Of a stretch of 64,000 bases of DNA, positions 11,570 to 34,620 are shown piece after piece. The notes beneath the pieces were generated by a model, which was given only the letters and a program-made list of their open reading frames with translations, had not been told where the DNA came from and searched no databases. The translations under genes and the position numbers were made by a program. Position 1 is the first letter of the stretch, and every line of letters begins with the position of its first letter. The stretch lies in contig SVNC01000004.1 in the NCBI GenBank assembly GCA_015067025.1, positions 1 to 64,000 on the forward strand. The letters run 5' to 3'. The stretch is from Oscillospiraceae bacterium (GTDB lineage: Bacteria > Bacillota > Clostridia > Oscillospirales > Ruminococcaceae).

Positions 11570-11713
11570 TTACTTGATAGCTTCACACTTCTGGTTTGCA
11601 ACAGTGCAGCTTGTCTTGCAAGCAGACTGGCAAGAAGTCTGGCACTTACCGCAACCGCCCTTAGCAGCTGTAGCCTTTAAGTTTGCCTTGTTAACTGTCT
11701 TGATATGCTTCAT
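11570..11713 (-). CDS. SCIFF (six cysteines in forty-five) ribosomal peptide precursor, 47 aa
   Basis: hand translation: MKHIKTVNKANLKATAAKGGCGKCQTSCQSACKTSCTVANQKCEAIK*; GGAGG RBS; not in the ORF track. Confidence 0.95.
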   Translation of the reverse strand: MKHIKTVNKANLKATAAKGGCGKCQTSCQSACKTSCTVANQKCEAIK

Positions 11714-11793
11714 AATAGCGTACCTCCGTTTTTTATTATCGTTCTTATTTTAACACAGATTTATCTGAATTTCAATAGCTAAAATGAAAAAAG

Positions 11794-13164
11794 TTATTTT
11801 CCTACGCAAAATCTTTCAAATATTCTTGCAATTACCTCTTCGCTGGCACTCTTTCCTGATAATTCGTAAAGCTGAGATAAAGCTGTTTCAAGCTCCAGTC
11901 CTGCCACGTCAGCAGTCATACCCGACAAGAGAGCATTGTAGGCATTATCCACAGCTCTTGTCGCTGATAAAGCACACTGACGCTGACGCTCGTTGGCAAG
12001 AAAGCCTGCTGACGGGTCTAACTTCTTTATGTTGCATTTTTCTCTTACTGCATTTTCGAGCATATCAAGCCCATCGCCCATTTTAGCGGATAATGTGACC
12101 GACTTTCCGAGGTTTTCTTCAATGTAGCCTACATCAACGGCAGTTTCAAGGTCGGATTTATTTATAACGGGGATTATATTTCTGCCCTTTATGATATCAA
12201 TAAATCTGTAATCTTCATCGGATAAGGGCTTTGAGCTGTCAAAAAGTGCCAATATAAGCTGAGACGTGTCAAGTCTTTGCAACATCTTCTGTACGCCGAT
12301 ATTTTCAACGGTATCTGAAGTCTCTCTGATACCTGCACAGTCGGATAGATGGAGAATAAGGTCGCCTAACATTACAGTTTCCTCAACGATATCTCTCGTA
12401 GTTCCCTCGATATCGGTAACGATACTTTTCTGTACACCTGTAAGCAGATTCATAAGAGTAGATTTTCCTGCATTGGGCTTACCTGCAATAGCTACCGTAA
12501 TACCCTCACGCATTACCTGACCGCTGTCGTAGGTTTCGAGCAGGTCGTCCATCTTTCCTTTAAGCACACCGATTTCCGTAGTCCAGTCGGCTCTGCTTAT
12601 CTCATCCTCATCTTCGCTTTCATCGGGATAATCTATCCATACGGCAATTTCTGAGGTTATCTTTATAATATCCTCGCAAAGCCCCTCTATTCTGCGGTAT
12701 AACGCACCCTCGCTCTGTGCCTTTGCACAGGTGATAAGCTGTTCGCTTCCTGCATTTATAAGGTCTATTACCGCCTCAGCTTCTGTAAGGGACATTTTGC
12801 CGTTTACAAGTGCCTGCTTTGTAAATTCACCTGCCCCTGCCATTCTTGCTCCTGCAGAAAGACAGCACTGAAGAACGAGCCTTGTTATATAGATACCACC
12901 GTGACAAGTTATCTCTGCCACGTTTTCTCCCGTGTAACTGTGGGGTGCACGGAAGATAAGCAGAATACCATCGTCTATCTTCTGTCCGTCCTTTAAAATA
13001 TCGCCATAGCTTGCGGAATACCCCTGCATTTTATCTATATCGCTCTGTGGAAATTTAGGTCTGAATACCTTTTTGGCAACCTCAAAGGCATCCTCGCCCG
13101 ATATTCTTATCATAGACACTCCGCCCTGAGCGACAGGTGTCGAAATTGCGGCTATACAATCCAT
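11794..13164 (-). CDS. mnmE: tRNA modification GTPase MnmE
   Basis: DCIAAISTPVAQGGVSMIRISG, GKPNAGKST, terminal FCVGK. Confidence 0.97.
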   Translation of the reverse strand: MDCIAAISTPVAQGGVSMIRISGEDAFEVAKKVFRPKFPQSDIDKMQGYSASYGDILKDGQKIDDGILLIFRAPHSYTGENVAEITCHGGIYITRLVLQCCLSAGARMAGAGEFTKQALVNGKMSLTEAEAVIDLINAGSEQLITCAKAQSEGALYRRIEGLCEDIIKITSEIAVWIDYPDESEDEDEISRADWTTEIGVLKGKMDDLLETYDSGQVMREGITVAIAGKPNAGKSTLMNLLTGVQKSIVTDIEGTTRDIVEETVMLGDLILHLSDCAGIRETSDTVENIGVQKMLQRLDTSQLILALFDSSKPLSDEDYRFIDIIKGRNIIPVINKSDLETAVDVGYIEENLGKSVTLSAKMGDGLDMLENAVREKCNIKKLDPSAGFLANERQRQCALSATRAVDNAYNALLSGMTADVAGLELETALSQLYELSGKSASEEVIARIFERFCVGK

Positions 13165-19959: not shown

Positions 19960-20131
19960 TTTTAAAATCTTTGATTTTAAAAGCAATGGGAATCTTGGTG
20001 AACGTCACGTGTTTGAACAACAATTTATTGTGCATCTGCTGTGTAACCCCGCCGTTAGTCTTTGCTTTTACGAACATCTATGCTTTCAAAAGGCGGTATT
20101 TGGATCAAACGCCACGCATTTGCTTGAATTT
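19960..20131 (-). repeat. structured intergenic repeat (unit B 20043-20131 plus a partial unit)
   Basis: on the minus strand: CAAATGC-GTG-GCGTTTG hairpin, CCGCC...AACGGCGG stem, AAATTGTTGTT; matches units at 29081-29275. Confidence 0.7.
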
Positions 20132-20180
20132 TTGCGATATTTATTATATAATTATCTAAAAGATATAAGGTGAGTGACGT

Positions 20181-26920: not shown

Positions 26921-28852
26921 TTAGGAAATTTTACAGCTTGAGCCGTTAAGTGTAGCACCATTTAACTTAAACTCGCCGGACGTGGTTATCTGAATTTCAA
27001 CTGTAAGAGTTCCGTTTGCATAAACGGAGTGATTCCAGTGCTTTTCTGTACAGTTGATATACGCCTTACCGCCGCTTACCGTTACATCGTCAGCACTCCA
27101 GGAGGTTATTGCTGACGCACCGGGAACGTCAAGTACAAGCTTCCAGCTATCAAAATTCTTTCCTGTGTTATTGGCAATAGTAAATTTAACCTGTGTTACC
27201 GTACTGCCGCCCGCTTGCCACGACGTACTTACCGTGTAGCTAAGCTCATAGTCTGATACCTGTGCAGGAGGCGGAGTTGTTTCTGGCTTTTTAGTTGTGG
27301 TTGTGGTTGTGGTTTCGGGCTTCTTTGTCGCAGTTGTCGTAGTTGTCGTTGTAGTCGTGGTAGTAGTTGTCGTAGTCGTTTCAGGAGCCTTTGTAGTCGT
27401 TGTAGTTTCAGGCTTCGGTGCGTCTGTTACCGTAGTCGTTGTATCAGGCACGGGAGCAGGCTTTACTGTAGACGTTGAAGAAGGTGTTTCGGGAGCAGGA
27501 GTAGAGGGATTATTTGCAGGTGTACTCGTCTGCGGCTTCTTTGTGGAAGTTGAGCTGCTCTGAGGCTTCTTTGTAGAAGTTGAACTGCTCTGGGGCTTCT
27601 TTGTGCTCGTGGAGGAGGACTGAGGTTTGCTTTCCTCATTGCCGCCCTGGTTTTCAGTTTCTTCTGACTGGGGAGGTACTTCTGTATCAGATGACTGATC
27701 ATCTGAATTTACAGGCTTATCAGAACCATCGGGCTTATCTGTCTTGCTTGTTTCGTTACCGTTTGCACCGGAGTTTTCGTTATCAGTGCTTACGTCAGAG
27801 CCTTGTGACTGGCTTACGTTACCGCCTACGGAAACATTGCCGTCATCTCTCTTATAGGTAAGCATCATAATAAGGCATACGATAAGCACGATAAGTGCCA
27901 CCGCACCTATTATTATGTAGAAGATAGCTTTTTTCTTTGAGCCGTCGTCCCCTTCAGGCACTTCGGTAAGCTCGGTTTCTTCTTCTTCCTTTTTTTCGGG
28001 AGGCTGCCAGTTTGCATAAAATAGCTTTGCTTCTTCTATAGTTCTCGGCTTTGTTATTTTAGAGATATCTCTTGGCGGTTCTGCACCCGACACGACTCCC
28101 ATAGCCGCAAAATAAGCCGCGTCATCCGTTATTATTTCGGTTGTCTTTGCTTTGTTTACTTCTTCTGTAGCGAAAGCAGCTTCCTCGGCAGGAGCAATCT
28201 CCTCGGCAGGAGCAATCTCCTCGACAGGAGCAATCTCCTCGGCAGGTGTAATCTCCTCGGCGGGTGTAATCTCCTCGGTAATTACAGGAGCTTCGCTTGG
28301 TACAGTCATAGTTTCTTCTGTAATGGGGAGAGCAATTTCATCCATTGCATCAGTAGCAGGAGCTACTGCAGACGCTGCTGTCATTGCCGCCATCTGTGCC
28401 GCTCTTATCTCTGAGGGACGCGGTTCCTGATTCAGTTCGATGCTGGGCATAGCATAATCAGAGCCATCGGGAGTAGCCTTCATAAAGTCTGTGGAATTTT
28501 CTGTAACCACAATGCTTGGCATATCTGAATTTACTTCAGCGGATATCATCATCGCTTCGTTTGTGGGCAAAGCCTCTACCGCTTCTACAATGGGTTCGCC
28601 GTCGTTTGCCGCTAAAGCTCCTGCACCAAAAAGATCTTCCATAGATGCTTCGGCAGTTTTTTCTGCTTGTTCTGCAGTTTTTTCGACAGTTTCCTTAGCT
28701 TCAGCCGCTACGTCAGCACCAAACAGCTCTTCGGGAGATAAAGTCGCTTCGGTAGTTTCTGCCGTATTAGTTATTTCCTCCGTCGCCTGAGCAGTATTTG
28801 CATCATTTTTAGGCGGCTGGTAATTGTTATTTTTATGCTTCTTTTTTGCCAT
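26921..28852 (-). CDS. single-pass membrane protein: acidic-repeat cytoplasmic region, TM, Ser/Thr/Pro linker, extracellular CBM2-like domain
   Basis: TM AIFYIIIGAVALIVLIVCLIMML; polyT linker; C-terminal YTVSTSWQAGGSTVTQVKFTIANNTGKNFDSWKLVLDV...CBM2 pattern; AAGGGG RBS before ATG 28852. Confidence 0.8.
   Translation of the reverse strand: MAKKKHKNNNYQPPKNDANTAQATEEITNTAETTEATLSPEELFGADVAAEAKETVEKTAEQAEKTAEASMEDLFGAGALAANDGEPIVEAVEALPTNEAMMISAEVNSDMPSIVVTENSTDFMKATPDGSDYAMPSIELNQEPRPSEIRAAQMAAMTAASAVAPATDAMDEIALPITEETMTVPSEAPVITEEITPAEEITPAEEIAPVEEIAPAEEIAPAEEAAFATEEVNKAKTTEIITDDAAYFAAMGVVSGAEPPRDISKITKPRTIEEAKLFYANWQPPEKKEEEETELTEVPEGDDGSKKKAIFYIIIGAVALIVLIVCLIMMLTYKRDDGNVSVGGNVSQSQGSDVSTDNENSGANGNETSKTDKPDGSDKPVNSDDQSSDTEVPPQSEETENQGGNEESKPQSSSTSTKKPQSSSTSTKKPQSSSTSTKKPQTSTPANNPSTPAPETPSSTSTVKPAPVPDTTTTVTDAPKPETTTTTKAPETTTTTTTTTTTTTTTTATKKPETTTTTTTKKPETTPPPAQVSDYELSYTVSTSWQAGGSTVTQVKFTIANNTGKNFDSWKLVLDVPGASAITSWSADDVTVSGGKAYINCTEKHWNHSVYANGTLTVEIQITTSGEFKLNGATLNGSSCKIS
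28192..28280 (-). repeat. 18-bp tandem repeat inside the CDS encoding (EEIAPA)n
   Basis: about five copies of ATCTCCTCGGCAGGAGCA with substitutions. Confidence 0.85.
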
Positions 28853-29080
28853 GGATATACCCCTTTCATAAACTTCCATATATAAATAAAGTATAGCATA
28901 AAATTTTACCCTTTTCAATTGAAAAAAGCAGAAAAAGCCGCCGGGCTTTTAAAATAATACCTTTTGCACAAATAATACATTAATTTACTGTGAGAAATAC
29001 CCATAGAATAGCGGACGTTTCAGCATCGTGAAATTTTAAATATATGCGGCAAGACTAATAAAGCAGCAGGCATGTATGTC

Positions 29081-29275
29081 AAATTGTTATTTGCGGGTTG
29101 CACCCGCGGGCATCTCCTGCCTTTAAAAATCATTGATGATGGCAACACATTGTGAACGGCAGGAATCATATGTTAAATGCACGATAAATTGTTGTTTGAA
29201 CGCGTGGCGTTCAATCCAATTTCCGCCTTTACTAGCCATTGCAATTGGCAAAACATTATGAACGGCGGTGTTACA
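29081..29275 (+). repeat. two tandem structured intergenic units (A1 29081-29170, A2 29186-29275)
   Basis: AAATTGTT[A/G]TTT + 6-bp/3-nt hairpin + CCTGCC..GGCAGG or CCGCC..GGCGG stem. Confidence 0.75.
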
Positions 29276-29308
29276 ATGTTGTTGTAATTTTTTTCAAATA
29301 ACCCACAA

Positions 29309-29403
29309 GCCTTGATATGCAAGGTGGTTTATTGCCCTAAAGGGCGTCGCAGTCCCTTGGACGGCTGCCTTCGGCGGCGGGCGTCTGATAGACGCCCCTA
29401 CGG
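29309..29403. repeat. hairpin ladder
   Basis: CCTTG/CAAGG, GCCCT-aa-AGGGC, GTCC-ctt-GGAC, GCTGCC-ttc-GGCGGC, GGGCGTCT-gat-AGACGCCC in series. Confidence 0.75.
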
Positions 29404-29489
29404 AATAGAGCAAATTAAAACAGGGTTAGATAATGTCCACAAACACCGATACAATCAACAAAATCCAACAAATTAAATATCGCAAAAGT

Positions 29490-29515
29490 CGTAGGGGCGA
29501 CTATCAGTCGCCCGC
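29490..29515. repeat. palindrome, inverted copy of the 29377-29403 palindrome
   Basis: CGTAGGGGCGACTATCAGTCGCCCGC versus rc CCGTAGGGGCGTCTATCAGACGCCCGC. Confidence 0.8.
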
Positions 29516-29590
29516 ATAAATCATCGCAATTTTTGATGGTACAACCCACCGCTAAACAACAATTTACCGTCGGGATATAAATCCCCACAC

Positions 29591-29616
29591 AAAAAGGCGA
29601 CCTTGCGGTCGCCTTC
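29591..29616 (-). terminator. intrinsic terminator after gatB
   Basis: AAGGCGACC-ttgc-GGTCGCCTT + TTTT on the minus strand. Confidence 0.85.
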
Positions 29617-29621
29617 GTTTA

Positions 29622-31061
29622 TTATGCCTTGTCAATCTCTTCAAGAAGAATTTTTCTTAGTACCTGGGGATCGCAGTTGCCCTTTAAGGTCTTCATGCAC
29701 TTGCCGAAGAGAGCCATAAGAGCCTTTTCCTTACCGCCCTTGTAGTCTGCAACAGACTTGGGATCGGAAGCTACTATCTCCTTAATAACCTTTTCGATGT
29801 TTGCTGTATCGTTGGAAACGATAAAGTTATTTTCTACCGCATACTTTTCGGGATCAATCGTTTCTTCATCCATAACAAGAAGGATCTTCTTTGCATTACC
29901 TCTTGTTACCTTGCTTTCCATAACAAGCTTGATGAGTTTACCAAGAGCGTTACCATCAACCTTAAGCTGATCCATTGTACTGCCCTTCTTGTTGAGCATA
30001 TTCATACAATCGGAAATGAGCCAGTTAGCAACTTCCTTAGCTTCGCCGCATTCCTTGTACGCTTCTTCAAAGCAATCACAGAATGCTCTTGACTGAGTGA
30101 TAAGATCAGCGTCATATTCGGATAAACCGAGCTCGTCAATAAATCTTGCCTTTTTAACTTCAGGGAATTCAGGTAAAGATGCCTTGATGCTGTCAAACCA
30201 TTCGTCATCAATTACGATGGGCATTACGTTAGGGTCAGGGAAATAACGGTAATCGCCTGCTGTTTCCTTGCTTCTCATAGCGTAGCTCTTGCCCTTTACG
30301 TCGTCCCAACGACGTGTTTCCTGAACAAGCTCTTCCGTACCGTTTTCAAGAGCGTCAATGTGTCTTGCAACTTCATATTCAATAGCTCTTGTGATAGCGG
30401 AGATGGAGTTCATGTTCTTCATTTCGGTACGTACGCCGAGCTTTGTATCGCCCTCTTCACGAATTGAGAGGTTTACGTCGCAACGCATAGAGCCCTGCTC
30501 CATACGGCACTGGGAAACCTTTGCAAAACGCAGGAGTGAACGGAGTCTTTCAAGATAAGCTACAACCTCTTCTGCACTGGAGAAGTCAGGCTGGCTTACG
30601 ATTTCGATAAGGGGAACGCTGGTTCTGTTATAGTCAACGAGGGAGGTATCTGTCCAGTCATCGTGTACGAGCTTACCTGCGTCCTCTTCCATGTGTATCT
30701 GCTTTATTCTGATATCCTTTTCGCCCTTGGACGTCTTAATTCTTACCTTACCGTTTACACAGATGGGAGCAAACCACTGAGTTGTCTGATAAGAGCAGGG
30801 CAGGTCGGGATAGTAGTAGTTCTTCTTATCAAAGGTTGTTGTTCTGTTGATATCACAGTTTAACATCATACCTGCAGTCATACCGAGGTCTACTACCTTC
30901 TTATTTGTAACGGGTAACATACCGGGCATACCGCAACAAGCAGGACATACGTGGTCGTTCTGTTCGCCGCCGAATTCTGCGGAGCAGGAGCAGAATATCT
31001 TTGACTTGGTCGCAAGCTCGATATGAACTTCAAGACCGATGACGGTTTCGTACTTTTTCAT
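29622..31061 (-). CDS. gatB: Asp-tRNA(Asn)/Glu-tRNA(Gln) amidotransferase subunit GatB
   Basis: YETVIGLEVHIELATKSKIFCSCS, DYNRTSVPLIEIVS, C-terminal Yqey-like tail. Confidence 0.97.
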   Translation of the reverse strand: MKKYETVIGLEVHIELATKSKIFCSCSAEFGGEQNDHVCPACCGMPGMLPVTNKKVVDLGMTAGMMLNCDINRTTTFDKKNYYYPDLPCSYQTTQWFAPICVNGKVRIKTSKGEKDIRIKQIHMEEDAGKLVHDDWTDTSLVDYNRTSVPLIEIVSQPDFSSAEEVVAYLERLRSLLRFAKVSQCRMEQGSMRCDVNLSIREEGDTKLGVRTEMKNMNSISAITRAIEYEVARHIDALENGTEELVQETRRWDDVKGKSYAMRSKETAGDYRYFPDPNVMPIVIDDEWFDSIKASLPEFPEVKKARFIDELGLSEYDADLITQSRAFCDCFEEAYKECGEAKEVANWLISDCMNMLNKKGSTMDQLKVDGNALGKLIKLVMESKVTRGNAKKILLVMDEETIDPEKYAVENNFIVSNDTANIEKVIKEIVASDPKSVADYKGGKEKALMALFGKCMKTLKGNCDPQVLRKILLEEIDKA

Positions 31062-32584: not shown

Positions 32585-34315
32585 TTAGTCTCTTACCTTG
32601 ATGTGAACTTCTCTTAACTGCTGTTCTGTTACGTCTCCGGGTGCACCCATCATTAAGTCCTGAGCGTTGCCGTTTAAGGGGAACGCGATAACGTCACGGA
32701 TCGTTTCTTCTTCAGCAATAAGCATTATCATTCTGTCAACACCGGGTGCCATACCTGCGTGAGGAGGAGCACCGAAGGAGAATGCAGTATAAAGTGCACC
32801 GAACTTTGCCTTTACGTCTTCTTCACCGTAACCTGCAATTTCAAATGCCTTCTTCATAATTTCGGGGTTGTGGTTTCTTACCGCACCTGAGGATAATTCC
32901 ACACCGTTACATACGATATCATACTGATATGCGAATATTTCAAGGGGATCCTTGTTGAGCAGTGCGTCCATACCGCCCTGAGGCATCGAGAAGGGGTTAT
33001 GTGTAAAGTCGATCTTGTTTGTTTCGCTGTTAAGCTCGTACATGGGGAAATCTACGATAAAGCAGAATTCAAACTTATCCTTGTTTATTATATCGAGTGT
33101 TTCACCAAGCCAGGTTCTGATCTCGCCTGAAAGTCTGTCAACAACAGCGGGAGCGTCACAGATGAAGAATACCGTTTCGCCGTCCTTGATGCCTGTGATG
33201 TTGATAAGCTCTGTTTTCTGCTCGTCAGATAAGAACTTTGCGATAGGTCCTTTATATTCGTTGCCGTTTAAGGTGAGGTAACCGAGGCCCTTCATGCCGA
33301 TGCTTGTAGCAAACTTTAAGCTGTCTTCAAAGAACTTCTTTGATCTGCCGGCACAATCAGCCACGATACCACGAACGGGCTTGCCCTTGAATAAGGGGAA
33401 TTCTACGTGGGAGAAGAATTCTGTAAGGTCGTTTATGATAAGAGGGTTACGAAGGTCAGGCTTATCTGTACCGTACTTAAGCATTGATTCATAATAAGGA
33501 ATACGCTTAAAGGGTGCGGGAGATATCTCCTTTGTTGTGAACTTCTTGAAGGTGTTATAGATAACCTTTTCAGCTACCTCGAATACGTCTTCCTGAGTAG
33601 CAAATGCCATTTCAAAGTCAAGCTGATAGAATTCACCGGGTGAACGGTCCTGTCTTGCGTCCTCGTCTCTGAAGCAGGGAGCGATCTGGAAGTAACGGTC
33701 AAAGCCACTTGCCATTAAAAGCTGCTTGAACTGCTGGGGTGCCTGAGGAAGTGCGTAGAACTTACCCTTGTGCTTTCTGCTGGGTACTAAATAGTCTCTT
33801 GCACCCTCGGGAGAAGAAGCTGTAAGGATAGGAGTCTGAATTTCCATAAAGCCCATTTCTTCCATCTGGCTTCTGAGATAGCTTAAAATCTTTGAGCGAA
33901 GAATGATGTTATTGTGGATCTTCTGATTTCTTAAATCGAGGAAACGGTATTTCAGTCTTAAATCCTCACGGATAGTTGTAGAAGAAGAAATATCAAAAGG
34001 CAGACCCATCTGGCAGGGGCCTAAGATCTCAAGGCTGTCAGCCTTTACTTCTACCATACCTGTTTCGATCTTTGTGTTGATTGTTTCTTCGTCTCTCTTT
34101 GTAACTTCGCCTGTTATCATGATAACAGTTTCCTTTGATACGTCCTTTAAAAGAGAGTCGTCGGAAAGTACCACTTGAGTGATACCGTAATGGTCGCGAA
34201 GATCTACGAAGATTACGCCGCCGTGGTCACGGATAGTATCTACCCAGCCTGCGATGGTAACCTTTTCGCCGATGTGGTTTAAATTAAGGTCGTTACAAGT
34301 GTGTGTTCTTAGCAT
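32585..34315 (-). CDS. aspS: aspartyl-tRNA synthetase (probably non-discriminating)
   Basis: class II motifs, bacterial GAD insertion, GMAPGVDRMIML; non-discriminating inferred from linkage to gatCAB. Confidence 0.95.
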   Translation of the reverse strand: MLRTHTCNDLNLNHIGEKVTIAGWVDTIRDHGGVIFVDLRDHYGITQVVLSDDSLLKDVSKETVIMITGEVTKRDEETINTKIETGMVEVKADSLEILGPCQMGLPFDISSSTTIREDLRLKYRFLDLRNQKIHNNIILRSKILSYLRSQMEEMGFMEIQTPILTASSPEGARDYLVPSRKHKGKFYALPQAPQQFKQLLMASGFDRYFQIAPCFRDEDARQDRSPGEFYQLDFEMAFATQEDVFEVAEKVIYNTFKKFTTKEISPAPFKRIPYYESMLKYGTDKPDLRNPLIINDLTEFFSHVEFPLFKGKPVRGIVADCAGRSKKFFEDSLKFATSIGMKGLGYLTLNGNEYKGPIAKFLSDEQKTELINITGIKDGETVFFICDAPAVVDRLSGEIRTWLGETLDIINKDKFEFCFIVDFPMYELNSETNKIDFTHNPFSMPQGGMDALLNKDPLEIFAYQYDIVCNGVELSSGAVRNHNPEIMKKAFEIAGYGEEDVKAKFGALYTAFSFGAPPHAGMAPGVDRMIMLIAEEETIRDVIAFPLNGNAQDLMMGAPGDVTEQQLREVHIKVRD

Positions 34316-34371: not shown

Positions 34372-34620
34372 ACAAAAAAGACGCCTGCCGCCCACATGGG
34401 ACGAAAGACATCTTCCGCGATACCACCCAAATTGATTGTTTCCAATCCTCTCAAAAAGTCGTTTCGTGACCTGACGTGCGGTTCTACTGACAGCTAAACT
34501 GCTTTCTTCCGCAGGCTACGGAGTGTTCTTCACTTAATATCCTGCTGTCGCACTCTCACCTACTGCGACTCTCTTTGAGCGGTGTTACAAGCTACTCTCT
34601 CCATCTACGCCAAAAATATT
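34372..34620 (-). ncRNA. T-box riboswitch leader of aspS-gatCAB
   Basis: minus strand: T-box TGGGTGGTATCGCGG (34415-34429), terminator stem 34378-34414 + TTTTTT, specifier context GAAGAACACTCCGTAG (GAAC at 34525-34528). Confidence 0.92.

Follow-up and report, generated by a model that had tools for sequence, protein, structure and literature searches.

Two adjacent copies of one intergenic unit, each with a perfectly paired hairpin of its own sequence, raise the question of whether an RNA fold has been kept by selection here or whether a structured element has spread. The window analyzed, a stretch of 64,000 nucleotides (G000:C6:1-64000), is part of a 2.41-Mb genome in 29 contigs. Both copies lie on its plus strand, unit A1 at 29078-29175 (100 bits with model R1) and unit A2 at 29183-29281 (67.7 bits). 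In A1, the end motif GTCAAATTGTTATTT (29078-29092), with AAATTGTTATTT at 29081-29092 directly 5' of the hairpin, is followed by the head hairpin GCGGGT-TGC-ACCCGC (29093-29107) and a longer second stem, CCTGCC...GGCAGG (29115-29164). In A2, the end motif is an exact GATAAATTGTTGTTT (29183-29197), with AAATTGTTGTTT at 29186-29197 directly 5' of the head hairpin GAACGC-GTG-GCGTTC (29198-29212), and the second stem is CCGCC...GGCGG (29221-29270); CATTGTGAACGG / CATTATGAACGG are present as well. The sequence-only reading had described two related units with a hairpin exactly 12 nt into each and a longer-range stem behind it, and these coordinates bear it out. The additional copy it had placed at 20043-20131 is real but weak, being a degenerate third unit on the minus strand (20036-20134, 27 bits) in a decayed composite. 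The single-sequence folding energies of A1 and A2 are unremarkable (z of -0.3 and -0.8).

A1 and A2 form the left part of a larger composite element (29078-29568), overlooked in the sequence-only reading, that lies between the gatB terminator and the next gene start. It is bounded on the left by GTCAAATTGTTATTT / GATAAATTGTTGTTT and on the right by the end motif in inverted orientation, AAACAACAATTTACC (29554-29568, read on the minus strand as GGTAAATTGTTGTTT). Its core includes a palindrome at 29377-29402 (CGTAGGGGCGTCTATCAGACGCCCGC on the minus strand), 92% complementary to a second one at 29490-29515 (CGTAGGGGCGACTATCAGTCGCCCGC, plus strand), which is the same small repeat found inside and beside a Y1 transposase gene on contig C25. 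The neighboring genes are gatB (29622-31061, minus strand; domains GatB_N and GatB_Yqey) and a minus-strand gene with a cellulose-binding CBM_2 domain, whose start is near 28849. Read along the minus strand, the gatB stop codon is followed by an intrinsic terminator hairpin (GGCGACCGCAAGGTCGCC, 29596-29613) and directly afterwards by the composite. The two units are outside any evident sense 3' UTR, and because they lie past the gatB terminator and antisense to both neighbors, the window copy is probably a mere mobile passenger. Genome G054 (L332, G054:C161) has, 3' of the gatB stop codon and in the place that the composite occupies in the genome under study, a partial duplicate of the final ~60 nt of that gene. 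Elsewhere in the window, a class II (D/K/N) aminoacyl-tRNA synthetase gene (32585-34315) is closely preceded by an ordinary T-box leader (RF00230, 101.7 bits; 34394-34616, minus strand).

The A1/A2 family is a previously unlisted repeat that occurs in high copy in a genus of herbivore-gut bacteria. BLAST retrieved 46 matches to the units within the same genome, and a covariance model built from 17 units confirmed the family: it detected at least 56 units here and gave matches in at least 21 of 71 genus genomes, at least 12 of them with four or more copies. Twelve unit-bearing species of the genus carry 4-73 copies each, with 73 in genome G022; these counts are lower bounds, as 57 candidates were scored per genome (150 for the G022 count). 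The units multiply within a genome and form tandem arrays. An earlier search with the whole 216-bp query, which gave no DNA similarity in 40 relatives and suggested a family confined to one species, was overturned by the covariance model. Searches of phages and plasmids gave no match, and no Rfam family matched the units at or above its gathering score, which, together with pairing confined to one register and a variety of stem types among species, agrees with the initial impression that this is not a named RNA family. Many contigs of the assembly (C7, C9, C12, C13, C18, C20, C21, C24 and C25) end within composite cores, so the repeats break the assembly and the true copy number is probably higher.

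Each unit is 70-105 nt long and consists of a head (a hairpin of six perfectly matched pairs around a 3-nt loop), a short linker ending in AATTCC, and a body of near-constant length closed by CC(N)GCC...GGC(N)GG. To avoid fitting the units to the structure, they were located with the hairpin masked; alignment with MAFFT over mixed head types misaligned the hairpin and hid all pairs but three, and the units were therefore re-anchored solely on TTCCGCC. Of 124 units located with the hairpin masked, 101 have at the head position a perfect palindrome of 6 bp or more, compared to ~1% of shuffles. All six head pairs form at one offset only (98 of 175 distinct units, against 0-12 at other offsets), and when linker length is left free, at least five of the six are kept in 151 of the 175. 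The heads comprise 35 different 5' arm sequences, and their pair cells are 92.8% Watson-Crick, 2.3% G-U and 5% mismatched. The second stem also shows two-sided changes, occurring as CCGCC/GGCGG, CCTGCC/GGCAGG, CCCGCC/GGCGGG and CCGACC/GGTCGG. The covariation score was 0.529, compared to 0.05-0.13 for slid controls, with rows chosen for full pairing and with block exchange giving the same signal. The 100% paired head cells in that formal count follow from this choice of rows; the variety of pair types does not. Some units fold better than their shuffles, with z down to -5.95. In a tandem array of G022 (L147), the GGCGG arm of one unit pairs with a downstream GCCGC instead of closing its body stem, and this alternative pairing makes a strong hairpin that resembles a terminator and has T5 behind it (z -5.95). 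Another family in which the linkers are conserved while the hairpins change was observed at L110, L111, L249, L257 and L258 (G061, G056 and G054), laid out as a tandem (GTGATGT or GATATCACC + hairpin)n ending in GTTGTGGTATCAATTGCC...GGCAATTGATGGAT.

How the heads came to differ can be read from closely matched copies. Contig C12 carries two terminator-unit-promoter copies that, over ~230 nt, show only 4 substitutions and one gap of 2 nt and yet have different heads, ACGGTGTGCCACCGC in one and GAACGCGTGGCGTTC in the other. At an orthologous stop codon with closely similar flanks, the head is GCGGCG-GGT-CGCCGC in the genome under study (contig C29) and GAACGC-GTG-GCGTTC in G056. Comparison of G014 with G059 revealed a single 28-nt insertion, a head plus TTCCGCCT, placed exactly between the stop codon and the old head. 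Several more orthologous head swaps were found at genes that we take, from their C-terminal sequences, to resemble PdxS, PolC, EF-G and FliS. Within the genome under study, near-identical bodies with different heads recur. The same hairpin types are shared by many copies whose bodies are interchangeable, another point that the sequence-only reading had missed. Heads are thus replaced, or extra heads inserted, as blocks. The sequence-only reading had argued that a structure kept while its sequence diverged implies selection on the fold, which does not follow when near-identical paralogues and orthologous sites differ by a whole hairpin; its other suggestion, spread as a structured element, is the better fit. 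Since whole hairpins are replaced in one block, A1 and A2 differ by a cassette and not by accumulated compensatory substitutions, and the covariation is not evidence for stepwise selection on an RNA. Template switching is a published route by which perfect stems change at one stroke (PMC8794818). Covariation of textbook quality, with 35 stems and two-sided changes at every stem pair, has here arisen with whole-block hairpin exchange, and we would note this as a caution for covariation-based RNA discovery in repeats.

In the species under study, most units lie within composites placed after gene terminators, and many composites were judged by eye to be directly 3' of an intrinsic terminator. 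The motif ATAAATTGTTGTTT, allowing up to 2 mismatches, has 128 matches in this genome, compared to 59 for the reversed control, and these matches largely form inverted pairs bounding composites that range from 45 bp to 1.1 kb in length. Within composites, repeats on the same strand are spaced 103-106 nt apart, with one unit per repeat, and the core consists of small palindromes nested within each other. The smallest composite (C13:16345-16389, 45 bp) is merely an end, a hairpin and an end. Sites C6:95308 and C7:47249 are occupied in three or four species with entirely different contents. Empty sites for these composites were sought in G061, G054, G056, G013 and others, where the sites were occupied by different contents or gene order was broken, and no spanning empty site was found for 14 loci of the genome under study.

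Placement differs between this clade and the rest of the genus. Over all classified clusters, 30 are convergent, 31 co-directional and 4 divergent. Within the clade formed by the genome under study, G054, G056 and G061, 49 of 83 heads follow the end motif, 8 are at terminator T-runs and 8 at stop codons; A1 and A2 are neither stop-adjacent nor in sense. Of the 26 units classified in other species, all but one are 3' of a same-strand gene. Sense distances from stop codon to head fall at -2 to +6 nt in 26 of 54 cases, most others being later units of tandem arrays, and antisense distances show no pile-up. The stops are native, and the proteins end like complete ones. In overlapping cases, the hairpin provides the last one or two bases of the stop codon, as in TA[GAGGCG and T[GAGGCG (the bracket marking where the hairpin begins). 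In six filled/empty pairs from sister species (L308/L339, L126/L363, L208/L343, L147/L347, L311/L371 and L292/L369), the empty gene ends in TAA and the filled gene in TAG or TGA in all six, the final base or bases of the filled stop coming from the hairpin. In sampled stretches, TAG is seldom seen where there is no hairpin (e.g., 1 of 26 in G022). A tentative reading of these data, which we hold to be somewhat less than an even bet, is that the element inserts in sense at the stops of protein genes, donating the last stop base or bases (TAA becoming TA/G or T/GA), with exchangeable heads and a hairpin cargo for the 3' UTR. The tight placement could have function rather than mobility as its cause; in E. 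coli, REPs closer than 16 nt to a stop codon reduce translation (PMC12306157). If the placement reflects targeting, the repeat would have an unusual means of entering genes and leaving them intact, and if function is the cause, REP-like control of translation termination could be tested directly with the filled/empty pairs.

Taken together, we regard the family as a REP/BOX-like mobile palindromic repeat, new and genus-specific, whose units probably exert a REP-like effect at the 3' ends of mRNAs, and put the probability of this reading at about 0.6. The unit would spread at the DNA level, by non-autonomous transposition and/or through exchange between copies (ectopic template switching or gene conversion), and such spread would keep the heads perfect palindromes. 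Where transcribed, stop-adjacent copies would probably work in mRNA like REPs, making the terminating ribosome pause and protecting the 3' end. The units could instead be a conserved regulatory RNA, a 3'-UTR motif selected for its fold whose paired changes are true compensatory ones retained by selection. The sense-oriented units of other species that start on native stop codons, the paired changes in both stems, the near-constant body length, the orthologous sites that often remain occupied and the units that outfold their shuffles are all consistent with such an RNA. We nevertheless consider it unlikely, because head changes come in blocks, G-U pairs are so few, copies range from 0 to 73 per species with sites empty in sister species, no single gene class is found at the units, and the window copies lie outside an evident sense 3' UTR.

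Neither of the two transposase types looked for as movers, IS630/DDE_3 and Y1/RAYT, was supported, a point against the preferred reading. That the composites are MITEs of a DDE transposase, with GATAAATTGTTGTTT as terminal inverted repeat, possibly a TA target duplication, and the units and hairpins as internal sequence, is rather improbable in our judgment. The 45-1100 bp composites with paired inverted ends, G[AG]TA at most of those ends, and the minimal end-hairpin-end element on C13 do suggest it. However, terminal inverted repeats are present in composites of the own clade only, and the end motif is absent from distant relatives in which the unit stays abundant and starts at stop codons; the genome under study has no IS630-type DDE_3 gene, 14 of its loci yielded no spanning empty site, and some ends are TCAAATTG and not TAAATTG. 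Right-hand junctions are too diverged to define a target-site duplication, and at the one exact unit-head insertion (G014 versus G059) any duplication is at most 1 nt. Mobilization of REPs by a REP-associated Y1 transposase (RAYT/TnpA_REP) acting on single-stranded hairpins would fit hairpin-based ends that resemble IS200/REP logic (PMC6006769, PMC3733652), the GTAG-tagged palindromes in the composite core, and the single Y1-domain ORF of the genome under study, which has core palindromes inside and beside it. Against it, no Y1 gene was found in G022 (99% complete, 73 copies), G061 or G074; G014 has Y1 genes, but these are nearly identical to one another, 169 aa each, and look more like ordinary IS200; and the Y1-domain ORF is flanked by core palindromes and not by units, lacks the composite end motifs, and even in its best stretch agrees with the profile at no more than 23 of 121 positions. 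We therefore think this mover very improbable. This 243-aa ORF (L102:1243-1974, minus strand; G000:C25 near 11656-12387) contains in frame the small palindromes GTAGGGGCGACTATCAGTCGCCCG and GCAGTCCGCAGGACTGC, which also build composite cores, in the manner of Rickettsia palindromic elements inside genes.

Among known systems, the REP/BIME elements found in enterobacteria and pseudomonads are similar in being small, high-copy palindromes that form tandem and mosaic arrays, lie outside promoters and in part are no farther than 15 nt from a stop codon (PMC12306157); the present units are likewise short intergenic palindromes in high copy at non-promoter positions. They differ in that the head is interchangeable among 35 stems while linker and body are conserved, in that the hairpin supplies stop-codon bases, and in that the richest genome has no linked RAYT. 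A RAYT gene flanked by the repeat was found in none of the genome under study, G022, G061 and G074. The unit itself lacks the REP tag GTAG/CGTC next to its palindrome, the heads being preceded by stop codons, TTT or AAATTGTTGTTT and GTAG occurring only on the separate core palindrome. REPINs are similarly composites of two hairpin-bearing ends in inverted orientation, although the composites here reach 1.1 kb with variable cores and a Y1 linkage is not supported. Quasipalindrome or template-switch turnover also changes perfect stems in one step and mimics compensatory change (PMC8794818); it is known as a process within a locus, whereas here the heads that replace one another in different copies are of types also present at other places in the genome. 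The BOX element of Streptococcus pneumoniae (boxA-(boxB)n-boxC), compared by architecture alone, is likewise composite and modular, with inverted ends, a tandem internal module and a sequence foldable as RNA (PMC3049150). In contrast to BOX, the module here is also found solitary and without ends at the stop codons of relatives, and the core is made of nested small palindromes. The family is best called a new one of a known kind, unusual in its habit at stop codons; it would act like REP/BIME there and, by that architectural comparison, like BOX as a composite, and we file it as neither.
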